Below, piece by piece: positions 50,065-56,122 of a DNA stretch of 64,000 nucleotides (the first letter of the stretch is position 1; each line of letters begins with the position of its first letter). The stretch comes from Candidatus Gastranaerophilales bacterium. Its GTDB lineage: Bacteria > Cyanobacteriota > Vampirovibrionia > Gastranaerophilales > Gastranaerophilaceae. The translations under genes and the position numbers were made by a program. The notes under the pieces are model-generated. The model was not told the origin of the DNA. It saw nothing but the letters and a program-made list of their open reading frames with translations, and did no database searches. The stretch spans positions 1 to 64,000 of the forward strand of contig CALVAQ010000001.1 in assembly GCA_944325595.1 (NCBI GenBank), given 5' to 3'.

Positions 50065-50340
50065 TTATGATTTTTTGAAAATGACACCTTTTCCGCTTTT
50101 CGGATACTTCCAGTCTATATGTTCGCAGGCAATTCTGCAAGCTCCGCATTCGAGACATTTTTCGTAACTTACGGTCAGTTTCTTTTCTGTCTCATTGTAG
50201 CAGTAAACATTTGCCGGACATATTATTGTACAGGTTTTTTCCTGACATTGCAAGCATTTTGATAAATCCGGAGTCAAATGTCCGGCTTCATCCGTTTTGT
50301 ATTTCAGAGTATACAATTTGTCTTCTATCTTTTTTTTCAT
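50065..50340 (-). CDS. fixX: ferredoxin-like protein FixX
   Basis: A 91-residue ferredoxin-like protein. Cys clusters are KCLQCQEKTCTIICPANVY and KCLECGACRIACEH; the second is a full four-Cys [4Fe-4S] signature, the first is less regular. FixX passes electrons between FixABC-type flavoproteins and quinone. It directly follows fixC, 15 bases apart. fixA and fixB are not adjacent, so the ETF partner is encoded elsewhere. Confidence 0.88.
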   Translation of the reverse strand: MKKKIEDKLYTLKYKTDEAGHLTPDLSKCLQCQEKTCTIICPANVYCYNETEKKLTVSYEKCLECGACRIACEHIDWKYPKSGKGVIFKKS

Positions 50341-50355
50341 GGTGTTTTCCGTGTT

Positions 50356-51669
50356 TTATTTTAATATTCCGAAAATGAGTTTTATTGCCGTAAATCCATC
50401 CGAAAAAAGCTCCGACAGGCTTCTTTTTGTAAAAAAGTATTTTGCAAATTTTCTGAATTTTTCTTTTTTGGGCTGCCCGTCCGTTGTGGTAAAGATGTTG
50501 AAAAACTCGTTAATTCTTGAAGGATAATACCCGAGAAAAGAAGCTGAGCGCTTTGTTAAAGACGGAACAACATCTTTGTAAGTAATCAAATCTTTTAGAA
50601 TAAAGCTGTTTAACAATTTCTTTTTGTAAAGACAAAGACTGTTTGAAGTAAAATCATTGTTTTCAAACGCTTCCAGAGCGGTTTCTCCGGCATATTTTCC
50701 GCTAATCATTGCAAAATTTGTTCCTTCAAAATGTACATTGTTTACAAGCATTGCCGCATCACCCGCAATCATAGCTCCGTCTGTATAGAGTGCGGGCATA
50801 GAGTTGTATCCACCTTCGGGAATCAAATGTGCGGAATACTCCGAGAGTTCTCCGCCTTCAATGAGTTTTGATACATAAGGGTGAGATTTTAGCGTATCCA
50901 GCAATTCATACGGTTTGAGCTTTTTGTTTTTTAAATCTTCAAGAGAAACACCAAGTCCCACCGCAACGGAAGATTTGTTTGTATAAATAAAACCGAGTCC
51001 GAACATTCCGGCAAAAGGTCCGCCGACAAGTTCTATTGCTGCGCCCTGATTTTCTTGAAGGGCAAAACGTTTTTCGATAGTTTCCCGAGGAAGTTTTATA
51101 ACTTCTTTTACTCCCAGAACAACATTGCCGGGTTTCATTTTTTCACGAAGACCGAGTTGTTTTGCAAGAAGCGAGTTCACGCCGTCGGCAATAATAACAA
51201 TATCCGCATAATAATCTTCTATATCCGTTGTTATTCCGACAACTTTTCCTTTTTCAACAATCAAATTGTTTACAAGGGTCTGCGGTGCAAAATAGACACC
51301 TTCTTTCACAGCCTGTTCTACACACCATCTGTCCCAATCCGCTCTGATTGCAACAAACGAACTTTTTTCGTTTTGAGGATTTCTATAGCTGATTTCAGTA
51401 GAGTCTTCTCCGTCAGAAAGCAGAACATAGCTGTGTCTTTCTACAAAACGCTCTATAGGTGCACTCTGTTCAAAATCGGGAAAAATTTCTTTTGCGGCGT
51501 GGGAGTATATAACACCGCCATACATATTTTTTGAACCGGCGAATGTTCCCCTTTCAACCAGCACAACTTTTTTTCCGCCCCGTGCAACCGTAATTGCCGC
51601 ACTGACACCCGCCGGTCCGGCACCTACTACTATCACATCAACTTTGTTCTGTTTGTTATTTTCTGTCAT
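50356..51669 (-). CDS. fixC: FixC-like electron-transfer flavoprotein-quinone oxidoreductase
   Basis: A 437-residue FAD enzyme. The dinucleotide-binding fold is VIVVGAGPAGVSAAITVARG, followed by GTFAGSKNMYGGVIYSH, the FixC/ETF-QO hallmark, and GDAAMLVNNVHFEGTNFAM, the FAD ribose motif. It takes electrons from an electron-transferring flavoprotein to quinone, via FixX. In nitrogen fixers, FixABCX bifurcates electrons; here no nif gene is seen, so a role in carnitine, fatty-acid or redox metabolism is likely. Confidence 0.9.
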   Translation of the reverse strand: MTENNKQNKVDVIVVGAGPAGVSAAITVARGGKKVVLVERGTFAGSKNMYGGVIYSHAAKEIFPDFEQSAPIERFVERHSYVLLSDGEDSTEISYRNPQNEKSSFVAIRADWDRWCVEQAVKEGVYFAPQTLVNNLIVEKGKVVGITTDIEDYYADIVIIADGVNSLLAKQLGLREKMKPGNVVLGVKEVIKLPRETIEKRFALQENQGAAIELVGGPFAGMFGLGFIYTNKSSVAVGLGVSLEDLKNKKLKPYELLDTLKSHPYVSKLIEGGELSEYSAHLIPEGGYNSMPALYTDGAMIAGDAAMLVNNVHFEGTNFAMISGKYAGETALEAFENNDFTSNSLCLYKKKLLNSFILKDLITYKDVVPSLTKRSASFLGYYPSRINEFFNIFTTTDGQPKKEKFRKFAKYFFTKRSLSELFSDGFTAIKLIFGILK

Positions 51670-51711: not shown

Positions 51712-54345
51712 TTACCGGAAATTTGTCAAAAATTTCTGCGGGGCAACTATTACCGTAACATACGGAGCATCAAAATATTTGTTTGCCGTTTTGATTACAT
51801 CTGAGGCGGTAACATTCTGAATTAATTCAGGAAACTCGTTTATGTAATCAATACCTCTTGAGCAAACCTCAAACCAGCCGAGAGTAGAGGCTTTTTCCAT
51901 GTTTGTTTCTTGCGAAAGTACAAAGTTTCCGAGGATTTTATCTTTTGCCTCCTGAAGTTCTTTGTCTGAGACAAATTCTTTTTTGAGGAGGTTAATTTGT
52001 TTTAAAAGCTCTTGTTTGGAATGAAGCGCTGTTTGCGGGTTTGTACCGATATAAACCGCAAAAACGCCCTGATTTATATTCGGAAGGAAAGTTGAACCCA
52101 CCTGATAAGCAAGACCCTGTTCCCCTCTGAGGCTGCTAAACAGTCTGGAACTCATACCGGAGCCCAGAAGCGAGTCAATAACCTGCAGTGCGGCAAGGTC
52201 TTTTTTGTCTTTTTCAGTTATACCGTCTGTAAGCCAGCCGAGAACAATCCATGCGGCTTCCGAATCCTTTGCCGTTTTGACGATTTTGTTTTTGCAAAGC
52301 GGTTTAAAGGCGTTTTGATACTGTGAATATTCAAATTTCTTTGCACCGCAGTCTTTTTTGTCATAAAAAATATTTGTTATTTGCTCGATTACGGCATTGT
52401 CATCCACATTCCCGTTGATTGAAACAACCAGATTTTGCGGACAGAAAATACTGTTATAAAAACCAAGCAGGTCTTCTCTTTTTATGGTTGGAATAGTTTT
52501 TTCCATAATTTTTCCAGTAATTCCGTACGGTGTATTTTCCCATATTGAGGTTTTAAAGTCTTCAAAAGCCACGCTTGAAGGAATATCACGATTTTTTTGG
52601 ATTGCATATATTTTTTCAGTTTTAATTCTTTCAATTTCCTGAGCATCAAAAGATGCGTTGTTCACTACTTCATTCAACAGTTCAAATGTCAGCGGAAGGT
52701 TGTTTTTTGTCGTCTTAACGGAAATTGAAAAATAGTCAGAACCCTGCGCCGGCACTATTTTTATACCGTTTTGTTCCATAATCTGAGACAAATCAAGGGC
52801 AGAATATTTTTTTGTACCCTTCATCATTGCCGATGCCGCTACGGAGCCTGTTCCGTATTTTTTTTCAAGAAAATTACCGCCTTTTGCATAAATCTGTATA
52901 GCAACAATATCGTTGAGATTGTTGTGGTTTATGATTAGATTTGTATTATTTGGGAGTTTATATTGAGTGATGTTTTTGTCTTTTTTGAGTACAACCGGAG
53001 GTTTTTTTTCAATGCTGCCGATTTTTTTAACGTTTTCTTCAGGCATATCTTGCGGAAGCATAACTGAAATCACAGCCCTGTCAGGGTTTAGATATTTTTT
53101 TGCGACCCTTACAATATCTGATTTTGTAACTTTTTTTATGTTAGAAATATATTCGTCATAGAATTTTGTATCACCGTATACAAGTGTAGTATAGCCGAGT
53201 TCATTGGCAATGTTTGATGTGGATTCTCTGGCATAAAATGTATCTCTTTCTATTATGCTTTTTGCAATATTAATGTCCTGTTCGTCAAAGTTTCCGTTTG
53301 AAACTTTTTGGATTTCAGAGAATATTGCTTTTTTGAGTTTGTCTTTGTTTGCGGGAATAAAATTTGCCCTGACAAAAAGAATACTGTCGTCTTTCATTGA
53401 AGCATGACCGGCAGAAATACTGTATGCAAGTTGTTTTTGTTCTTTGACGGACTGATAGAGTTTTGATGTACGGCCGTCGCCGAGAAGAACAGACAAAACA
53501 TCCAGAGCATAGCCGTCGTTTCTGTTTTCCTGCGGAACACCTCTGAATCCAATCATCATATAGCCTGTTTTTACATTGCCTTTATCATCAATTTCTATTT
53601 GTTTTGTAATCGGTTTATCCGACTTATAATCAGGATTTTTGCAGTTTTTTGCTTCTTTTTTATTAAAGTTTTGTTTTATAAGATTCAATGCGCTCTGAGT
53701 ATCGACATCACCCACAACAACGGTAATCATATTTGACGGGTTGTACCATGTATTGTAAAACTCCATGATTTCATCACGTGAAATGTTTTCTATGATATTT
53801 TTTTTGCCTATTACATTTCTTTTGTACGGATGATTTGTATAGAAAGCGCCAATCATGTTTTCATACAGTTTGTTTTCAGGATCATCAAGAGTCTTTGAGA
53901 TTTCTTCAAGAACAACTTTTCTCTCTTTTTCAAGTTCTTTTCTGGGAACAAGAGGATTCATAAGCATATCTGCATGCAAATCTATTGCCGTTTGAAAATC
54001 CTTTGAAGGCAGAGTTATGTAATAATGTGTAAAATCTTTGCTGGTAGCGGCATTTGTCTGTGCACCTTTTGCTTCAAGTATCCTGTCAAATTCACCGGTA
54101 GGATGTTTTGTTGTACCTTTAAAAAACAGATGCTCCAAAAAATGTGCAACACCGTTGTTGGTATCATTTTCGTTTATTGAACCGGTTTTTATCCAGGTAT
54201 CTATTGTGACAATCGGGTTGTCGTGCACTTCTTTTATGATAACAGTCTGCCCGTTATCCAGTTTGCTAACTGAAAAATCCTGTGCAAAAACATTGTTAAC
54301 GGTTAAAAATATTAAGCAAAAAATAAAAAATCCAAATTTTTTCAT
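51712..54345 (-). CDS. exported M16-family zinc peptidase, two-domain
   Basis: An 877-residue protein with a signal peptide (MKKFGFFIFCLIFLTVNNVF). The N-terminal M16 domain has the inverted zinc motif HFLEH (His68, Glu71, His72) and the acidic downstream ligand region in YENMIGAFY. The second half (about 440-877) is an M16C-like domain without the motif, as is usual. Such proteases form clamshells that cut peptides in the periplasm. The adjacent HCP-like gene is divergent. No obvious partner is seen. Confidence 0.92.
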   Translation of the reverse strand: MKKFGFFIFCLIFLTVNNVFAQDFSVSKLDNGQTVIIKEVHDNPIVTIDTWIKTGSINENDTNNGVAHFLEHLFFKGTTKHPTGEFDRILEAKGAQTNAATSKDFTHYYITLPSKDFQTAIDLHADMLMNPLVPRKELEKERKVVLEEISKTLDDPENKLYENMIGAFYTNHPYKRNVIGKKNIIENISRDEIMEFYNTWYNPSNMITVVVGDVDTQSALNLIKQNFNKKEAKNCKNPDYKSDKPITKQIEIDDKGNVKTGYMMIGFRGVPQENRNDGYALDVLSVLLGDGRTSKLYQSVKEQKQLAYSISAGHASMKDDSILFVRANFIPANKDKLKKAIFSEIQKVSNGNFDEQDINIAKSIIERDTFYARESTSNIANELGYTTLVYGDTKFYDEYISNIKKVTKSDIVRVAKKYLNPDRAVISVMLPQDMPEENVKKIGSIEKKPPVVLKKDKNITQYKLPNNTNLIINHNNLNDIVAIQIYAKGGNFLEKKYGTGSVAASAMMKGTKKYSALDLSQIMEQNGIKIVPAQGSDYFSISVKTTKNNLPLTFELLNEVVNNASFDAQEIERIKTEKIYAIQKNRDIPSSVAFEDFKTSIWENTPYGITGKIMEKTIPTIKREDLLGFYNSIFCPQNLVVSINGNVDDNAVIEQITNIFYDKKDCGAKKFEYSQYQNAFKPLCKNKIVKTAKDSEAAWIVLGWLTDGITEKDKKDLAALQVIDSLLGSGMSSRLFSSLRGEQGLAYQVGSTFLPNINQGVFAVYIGTNPQTALHSKQELLKQINLLKKEFVSDKELQEAKDKILGNFVLSQETNMEKASTLGWFEVCSRGIDYINEFPELIQNVTASDVIKTANKYFDAPYVTVIVAPQKFLTNFR

Positions 54346-54490
54346 AATAATAAATCCTCAAATCCGGTGATACAAAATTATACTATATATTTGAATATTC
54401 ACGCATAATCTTTAAGCGGAAAAAACGGTTTATTTGTTTATTGCTCTTTTGGTCAATGGTTTCGCTCAAAAGTTTGTATAAAATGCAGAT

Positions 54491-56122
54491 ATGTCAAATC
54501 AGTTTGAAAATTACAAAGACCCTGATTTCGGGGGAATATACAACGGAAAACTTTCATCCAGCCAGTGTGCAATAGAGGGGTTTTGCAGTGTAGACCCTAT
54601 TGTATATTCTCTGCTCGAGGTTCTTTTGTATGAACTCAAACTACTCACATATTATTATGTAAAAATGCAGGAGCTTGGTTATGAAAACCGTAAACTAAAA
54701 GACAGAATAATAAGTTACCTGTCTTTAATTATTGCCGGGTACGAGTTTGACAGAAATGAGTTTCAAAAGGCGCTGTCAGAAATTCATCGTGACAAAGAAG
54801 AAGCAAAAAATTCGTTCATCAAAGTGTGTGAACAAAAAAACATAGACTGTCAGATTTTGAAATCAAACATAAAGTTTGAAAAATTTGACCTGAATTCGCT
54901 TGTCAATCAAGGTGAACAACAGGCAATAAACCGCAATAAATCCGTTAATTCGGACACAAAAAACCTGTATGAAATTATTATGAACATAATAAAAAGCGCC
55001 AGTATCCGTCTTATTGAACTAAAAAGTTATACAAAAGACTATCTTCCGGAAGAAGATTCCATTTTAAAGCTGTTTAACAATCTCAATTTTTCAACAATGA
55101 CGGAACAAAAACTCATTAAAAAAATAAACGATTTTGCAAAAGTAAATTATGATATTCACAAAAAGCTTCATCAAAAAAAAGAAGAATATTTTGGAAAAAT
55201 AGATTTGCATAAAGTCACTATCGGGGTCAAAAAGGGTAAATCCATTCTTGCTTCCGGACAAAACCTCAAGGATTTTGAAAATTTGCTTGAGGCAACAAAA
55301 GATACCGGCATCAATGTTTATACTCACAACGGATTGATTGTTGCTCATGCATATCCCAAATTTGCGCAGTACAAAAATCTTGCAGGACATTTTCAATTGT
55401 CACCGGACAGTGTACAGTTTGATTTTGCTTCTTTTAAAGGTCCGGTTCTTGTAATCCGAAACTTTCAATACCTTCTGGACAAGTTATATCGTGGTCGTTT
55501 GTTTACAACAAACATCATTGCCGGCAAAGGTATGACAAAAATAGAAAACAATGATTTTTCTTCACTGATAGATTATGCGGAAAAATCAAACGGTTTTGAG
55601 CACGACCATCTGATAACGGAGGTGAAAGTAGGTTATCGGGAAGAAGAAATCATGGAAAAAATCAACAATCTGACAGAAAGAATTAAAAACAAAGAGATAA
55701 AACATCTGCTGGTTGTAGGTTTGCTAAATCATACAACAGGGCATTCTTCTTATTTCAGCGAACTTGAAAAAAACCTTCCGGAAGACTTTTTTGTCATATC
55801 AACAATCATGCCGTCAACAAAAAAGAATATTCTTTATTTTGACTCTTTCTTTAACTCTTCATTGATATACAAAATTCTTGCACACATAAAAACACAAACT
55901 GATTTTGAAAAATTTCCGGTCAGTGTATTTATTACAACCTGCAATCTTCACACCCTGTCTCATATTTTCAATCTAAAATATCTCGGGATAAAAAACATTT
56001 TTCTTCCCGAATGCGGTTCAAACACAATAACACCGCAGATGGCAAAGTTTTTAAAAACAAAATTCGGCTTCAAGCAGGTATCACAAAAACCGGAAAATGA
56101 TTTGTCTGCAATTAATTCTTAA
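54491..56122 (+). CDS. hybrid-cluster-protein (HCP)-fold homologue lacking the metal ligands
   Basis: A 543-residue protein whose length and block order match hybrid cluster protein: SILASGQNLKDFENLLEATK, INVYTHNGLIVAHAYPKF, FKGPVLVIRN and SSYFSELEKNLPEDFFVIST. In HCP the hybrid Fe-S-O cluster is held by a His, two Glu, four Cys and a Lys. Here the matching positions read Gln257, Gly281, Phe325 and non-Cys residues at all four later sites. The N-terminal Cys pair is also missing. It may be an inactive relative. It has no ribosome site; TATAAA at 54477 could give a leaderless message. It overlaps the convergent RNA methyltransferase gene by 11 bases. Confidence 0.7.
   Translation: MSNQFENYKDPDFGGIYNGKLSSSQCAIEGFCSVDPIVYSLLEVLLYELKLLTYYYVKMQELGYENRKLKDRIISYLSLIIAGYEFDRNEFQKALSEIHRDKEEAKNSFIKVCEQKNIDCQILKSNIKFEKFDLNSLVNQGEQQAINRNKSVNSDTKNLYEIIMNIIKSASIRLIELKSYTKDYLPEEDSILKLFNNLNFSTMTEQKLIKKINDFAKVNYDIHKKLHQKKEEYFGKIDLHKVTIGVKKGKSILASGQNLKDFENLLEATKDTGINVYTHNGLIVAHAYPKFAQYKNLAGHFQLSPDSVQFDFASFKGPVLVIRNFQYLLDKLYRGRLFTTNIIAGKGMTKIENNDFSSLIDYAEKSNGFEHDHLITEVKVGYREEEIMEKINNLTERIKNKEIKHLLVVGLLNHTTGHSSYFSELEKNLPEDFFVISTIMPSTKKNILYFDSFFNSSLIYKILAHIKTQTDFEKFPVSVFITTCNLHTLSHIFNLKYLGIKNIFLPECGSNTITPQMAKFLKTKFGFKQVSQKPENDLSAINS

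Follow-up and report, generated by a model that had tools for sequence, protein, structure and literature searches.

A full-length protein of the hybrid cluster protein fold lacking the hybrid-cluster ligands in Gastranaerophilales

Introduction

The physiological role of hybrid cluster proteins (HCPs) has been debated for decades, and the reduction of hydroxylamine and NO, which constitutes their established biochemistry, needs the ligands of the hybrid cluster. The closest described relatives of P0001, a protein encoded in the window (the whole stretch of 64,000 nucleotides analysed), are the class I HCPs or prismane proteins (Desulfovibrio vulgaris, 1e1d; D. desulfuricans, 1gn9; Methanothermococcus, 8cnr). 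P0001 shares with them the predicted fold (Z about 30 over 497–509 residues), the length, and two of the four N-terminal cysteines, spaced CX5C. It differs from them in being without the seven ligands of the hybrid cluster, the Lys of the EQK motif and the N-terminal CX2C, in having new cysteines (Cys113, Cys484 and Cys508), and in that the genes of many of its relatives adjoin a glutaredoxin gene.

Departure from the standard active site within the HCP/CODH superfamily is also seen in CODH-V (CooS-V; 7b7q), which has no C-cluster and no CODH activity (PMC10502027). However, CODH-V still binds an Fe-S-O cluster with most of the ligands, whereas P0001 has lost the whole ligand set. Class III HCPs (7e0l; C67Y variant 7wsx) differ from P0001 in keeping the hybrid-cluster ligands and in lacking the outer helices; those of their loops that match the Cys484 and Cys508 loops of P0001 move when the N-terminal cluster is lost. 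The glutaredoxins concerned (Grx3-type, TIGR02181, and GST_N/Grx2-like) are separate proteins encoded upstream in relatives, and are not adjacent in the window's genus. Within the open-access literature, no paper was found that joins HCP with Melainabacteria or Gastranaerophilales or that describes a ligand-less HCP, and HCP and glutaredoxin appeared together only as unrelated co-mentions.

Results

P0001 is predicted to have the HCP fold

The sole Pfam match of P0001 is Prismane (2.8e-32, residues 25–438), and the corresponding profile (PF03063) scores 112.5 bits against a curated cut-off of 27. Alignment with solved HCPs by phmmer (1e-37) runs nearly end to end, at 21–23% identity in the structural alignment. 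An AlphaFold model built from the 60-row alignment A2 reached a mean pLDDT of 88 and a pTM of 0.88, with residues 1–32 below pLDDT 50. All of the top PDB matches returned by a structure search with this model are HCPs, with CODHs next; superposition on 1gn9 gave a Z of 30.4 and an rmsd of 4.0 for 497 residues, and the predicted fold is nearer to HCP (Z 30) than to CODH (Z 15). The HCP fold was predicted for a second, glutaredoxin-linked relative too. Pfam, phmmer and the superposition agree with the full-length HCP homologue proposed by the first-pass annotation, and on the predicted model P0001 is confirmed as a full-length HCP-fold protein, the match being far beyond chance. The features discussed below are collected in Table 1.

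Table 1. Positions in the window of the P0001 gene, its promoter elements, the divergent neighbour and the residues discussed in the text
Feature	Position	Strand	Basis or remark
Ligand-less HCP-fold protein P0001	54491..56122	+	543 aa ORF
Promoter element ATTGCTCTTTTGGTCAATGG, imperfect inverted repeat	54440..54459	+	conserved in genus
TATAAAAT, probable -10 box	54477..54484	+	6 nt before start codon
Divergent M16-type (zinc peptidase) gene	51712..54345	-	neighbour in genus, context only
Cys26...Cys32 (CX5C), kept from HCP N-terminal [4Fe-4S] motif	54566..54586	+	alignment
Cys113, Cys120 (CX6C)	54827..54850	+	113 family-wide; 120 mainly genus and two sister genera
Gln257 at His ligand position	55259..55261	+	phmmer, MAFFT, residue check
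Gly281 at Glu ligand position (THGEM)	55331..55333	+	phmmer, MAFFT, residue check
Phe325 at Cys ligand position (TNC)	55463..55465	+	phmmer, MAFFT, residue check
Leu412 at (persulfide) Cys position (GGCD)	55724..55726	+	phmmer, MAFFT, residue check
Met440 at Cys position (ACGK/GCAK)	55808..55810	+	phmmer, MAFFT, residue check
Phe454 at Cys position (GQCND)	55850..55852	+	phmmer, residue check; gap in MAFFT
Cys484 (new, conserved), Asn485 at Glu position, His487 at Lys position (WYEQK)	55940..55951	+	
Cys508, new, conserved	56012..56014	+	co-lost with Cys484

The hybrid-cluster ligands are replaced

Ligand positions in P0001 were read from the phmmer alignment, from MAFFT alignments that included intact HCPs from its own genus, and by a residue check. 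All eight hybrid-cluster residues are replaced, namely the Lys of EQK and the seven ligands (one His, two Glu and four Cys, including the persulfide Cys). Six of these substitutions (Gln257, Gly281, Phe325, Leu412, Met440 and Phe454) had been read correctly in the first-pass annotation; for W[FY]EQK, its assignment of Cys484 to the Glu and of Leu486 to the Lys was off by one, the residues being Asn485 and His487. No intact ligands in shifted positions were found in the alignments. The four-cysteine motif that binds the N-terminal [4Fe-4S] cluster of HCP has lost its first two Cys (CX2C), as had been noticed from the sequence, and the last two remain with the spacing they have in HCP. The Cys residues of the Ni,Fe-CO dehydrogenase cavity, at positions shared with HCP, are absent as well.

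Because the hybrid-cluster ligands are absent, hydroxylamine/NO reductase activity is expected to be lost. The scores of P0001 with the NCBIfam hydroxylamine-reductase models (229 and 226 bits) lie below their cut-offs (367 and 361). P0001 belongs to the HCP/Prismane fold family, yet lacks the features by which hybrid cluster proteins are defined, and should therefore not carry a hydroxylamine reductase annotation.

The ligand-less protein is near-universal in its family and conserved

The genomes used were MAG-based, with one genome per species. When the 239 genomes of the family were searched with the genus alignment, 226 of them, from 39 of the 41 genera, contained one to five matches each; in a few of these, intact HCP alone accounts for the match. 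At E below 1e-100, intact HCP was present in 89 of the 239. Across the family the ligand-less protein is thus near-universal and far commoner than intact HCP, which is patchy. The window's genome (G000; assembly 94% complete) contains the ligand-less protein only, and no second, intact hcp gene was found in it. Outside the order, the sampled genomes of the phylum contain intact HCPs or fragments and no ligand-less HCP; the few low-scoring matches there are fragments or split genes. The scaffold or regulator put forward in the first-pass annotation, if read as one of HCP, is unlikely, given a near-universal protein, a patchy HCP and none in this genome. A partner of intact HCP is ruled out by the distribution, since the ligand-less protein occurs without it.

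Orthologues with 65–84% protein identity are found in 22 of the 23 genomes of the window's genus, with the frame open over the whole length (one stops a few residues early), and alignment of close relatives revealed that the substitution of the ligands is fixed across the whole clade. For ten same-genus or sister-genus pairs, dN/dS was 0.05–0.09 in most and 0.01 in the closest, about equal to that of intact HCP (0.03–0.07). These ratios show the ligand-less gene to be under purifying selection. The kept reading frames and the low dN/dS rule out a pseudogene, and a singleton pseudogene in particular, the outcome that would have undone the earlier reading.

New cysteines and a putative four-cysteine site

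P0001 contains six cysteines (26, 32, 113, 120, 484 and 508), all conserved in the genus, Cys120 in all but one member. Cys26 and Cys32 correspond to the third and fourth N-terminal ligands of HCP, and the pairs 113/120 and 484/508 are new relative to HCP. Hence the earlier view that the fold was kept and the active site dropped holds, but the cysteine chemistry is not simply gone. Cys113, Cys484 and Cys508 are 77–100% conserved in the three subgroups of the ligand-less clade of family f1 and are absent from intact HCP. Cys484 and Cys508 have been lost jointly in three separate lineages (L068/L143, L133 and L129), all of which retain the N-terminal pair 26/32; loss of only one of the two was never seen.

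Summed over the N-terminus, the 484 loop and the 508 loop, exactly four Cys are present in 87 of 102 copies; copy L082:2126 has three of them. All eight copies without Cys26 or Cys32 have an extra Cys at most two residues from Cys508 (CC or CXC), against 2 of the 92 others. When the whole protein was scanned in 5-column windows, the Cys508 loop came out best (p 2.4e-10) and the next unrelated place at 1e-3, where p serves as a ranking only, since related sequences are counted and the N-terminal Cys losses represent four events, with the extra Cys in three backgrounds.

In class III HCP, the loops around Glu434 and Trp461 move on loss of the N-terminal cluster (PMC10502027), and these loops must therefore abut that cluster. 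Judged by spacing, Cys484 lies one residue before the equivalent of Glu434 and Cys508 four residues before that of Trp461. From the cysteine compensation together with the loop positions in class III HCP we infer a four-cysteine site at the place of the N-terminal [4Fe-4S] cluster, in which Cys26, Cys32, Cys484 and Cys508 would form one rebuilt site replacing that cluster. The three lineages that keep 26/32 without 484/508 count against a strict four-ligand site, which would not predict them.

A glutaredoxin gene is linked to many ligand-less genes

In genera other than the window's, many ligand-less genes are immediately preceded by a glutaredoxin gene; this holds for 43 of the 107 ligand-less genes, as compared with 0 of 19 intact HCP genes. 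The gap is −20 to +27 nt, mostly 0–14, and the glutaredoxin motif is CPYC, CPFC or CPYS. Two unrelated kinds are involved, GST_N_3/Grx2-like (75–95 aa) and Grx3-like (TIGR02181; 88 aa), and their linked copies fall into separate regions of the tree; the association thus arose at least twice or outlived a swap of partner. The linked copy is the genome's only Grx3-type match in G053 and G096. No linked glutaredoxin occurs in the window's own genus. In the tree, the window's lineage falls together with the Grx3-linked clade (support 90–94), and G000 encodes an unlinked Grx3-type glutaredoxin on contig 19 and a protein with a glutathione-synthetase domain. Gene linkage makes glutaredoxin a likely partner of the ligand-less protein.

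In many genera the pair of glutaredoxin and HCP-like genes adjoins rpsL-rpsG, encoding S12 and S7 (loci L158, L159, L162–L168, L171–L174 and L178).

Promoter and gene context

In most of the genus the element ATWGCYNNNNNRGYYAATGG (TAGCY-N5-RGYTA) is found at the −35 region upstream of the ligand-less gene. It occurs essentially once per genome and is specific to this gene, so that a regulon sharing the element was discarded. In most members of the genus a TATAAAAT/TTTAAAAT box also precedes the start codon by 6–7 nt; the mRNA of the ligand-less gene would be near-leaderless. Near the P0001 gene, at 50065–51669 of the window, are genes for a FixX-like ferredoxin and a FixC-like flavoprotein, by eye of the electron-transfer flavoprotein oxidoreductase type.

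Part-decayed forms and the tree

About 100 ligand-less ORFs (family f1) and 19 intact HCPs were extracted from the order. Every ligand is kept in all 19 intact HCPs, and ligand-less f1 copies match a ligand residue at two or so positions at most, which differ between genera. Part-decayed forms occur in two neighbouring families, f7 and f6. L107 (f7, 800–2446) retains all four N-terminal Cys, the Glu and two cavity Cys; L111/L113 retain the last two N-terminal Cys, the Glu and one Cys; L114/L115 retain two cavity Cys, the N-terminal motif being absent. L107 passes the NCBIfam 'hydroxylamine reductase' cut-off despite several missing ligands, and this annotation is likely a misannotation.

In an IQ-TREE tree without a CODH root, the intact HCPs are set apart by a branch with support 100, the ligand-less f1 proteins come together in a single group (support 100), and f7 and f6, both on long branches, lie in between. 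One duplication of HCP followed by stepwise ligand loss would be the simplest reading of this tree. Origin as a recent copy of a local HCP was rejected, as the local intact HCPs have about 510 aa, partly miss the middle region and belong to another clade.

Three further observations concern individual loci. Tandem ligand-less genes, overlapping or 14 nt apart, occur in L067 (429–2093, 2090–3688) and L082 (504–2111, 2126–3751), arranged as if their products might form a heterodimer. A very divergent ligand-less subgroup (L093, L094, L119, L121, L122, L128, L130 and L131), of 483–501 aa when complete, has a weak Pfam Prismane score and a mostly kept cysteine pattern. In f6, the ligand-less gene of L181 (9183–10748) and L182 follows, after 65–82 nt on the same strand, a gene for an uncharacterised protein of 450–520 aa.

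Discussion

With the fold kept, the site gone and the substitutions fixed throughout the clade, a new role, as suggested in the first-pass annotation, is very likely. According to our model, an HCP paralogue in Gastranaerophilales would have lost the hybrid cluster stepwise and been kept as a new protein. Two C-terminal loops (484 and 508), which in HCP lie against the N-terminal cluster domain, would have supplied new cysteines that, with the old Cys26 and Cys32, make a single site substituting for the N-terminal [4Fe-4S] cluster. The product would be a single-site redox protein, the site being a rebuilt Fe-S cluster or alternatively of the Zn or thiol/disulfide type, and would reduce neither hydroxylamine nor NO by the HCP mechanism. 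A glutaredoxin may reduce, deglutathionylate or load with Fe-S these cysteines, the host bacteria carrying a glutathione-synthetase gene. On balance we lean towards such a rebuilt thiol/Fe-S redox protein served by glutaredoxin, its metal, partner and reaction all being putative. Somewhat more tentatively, the one-cluster HCP derivative with C-terminally recruited cysteines and glutaredoxin might represent an Fe-S/thiol redox or sensing module throughout the family.

The strongest competitor, to which we would give about one chance in four, is a metal-free protein of thiol redox or glutathionylation, in which a reversible disulfide between Cys484 and Cys508, close to the former active-site cavity, is reduced by glutaredoxin, and the CX5C pair has a structural role or makes a second disulfide. 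The joint loss of 484/508 with 26/32 staying shows that the former can be a unit of their own, and the glutaredoxin coupling and the glutathione synthetase would fit. However, the compensation between N-terminal Cys and the Cys508 loop suggests one shared four-cysteine site, and the presence of glutaredoxins does not decide, as these also carry Fe-S clusters. It is rather improbable that P0001 is a pseudo-enzyme scaffold or regulator whose empty HCP cavity binds a metabolite, an NO-derived species or a partner protein, the cysteines being secondary. In its favour, Gln257, His279, His286, His300, Asn485 and His487, in or close to the former ligand motifs, do not vary within the genus, but the pocket replacements differ between genera whereas the cysteine pairs are shared, and a protein present without intact HCP is no HCP partner. 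A still catalytic hybrid-cluster or related oxidoreductase with shifted ligands, which the fold and the family-model scores could indicate, is highly improbable, since none of the six Cys is at a cavity ligand position and no conserved set of His, Glu and Cys replaces the seven ligands across genera. A decaying gene without function, for which the stepwise ligand loss in related families might be taken, is least credible of all against the orthologues and dN/dS of the genus, a conserved promoter element of its own and new conserved residues.

An HCP homologue that is under selection and unable to carry the hybrid cluster shows that the fold alone can serve another use, and the part-decayed forms in two sister families provide a natural series that leads from the enzyme to a non-enzyme. 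Annotation by automatic means cannot be relied on here, as the case of L107 illustrates. The coupling to glutaredoxin offers a direct and testable handle on function in these uncultured gut bacteria.
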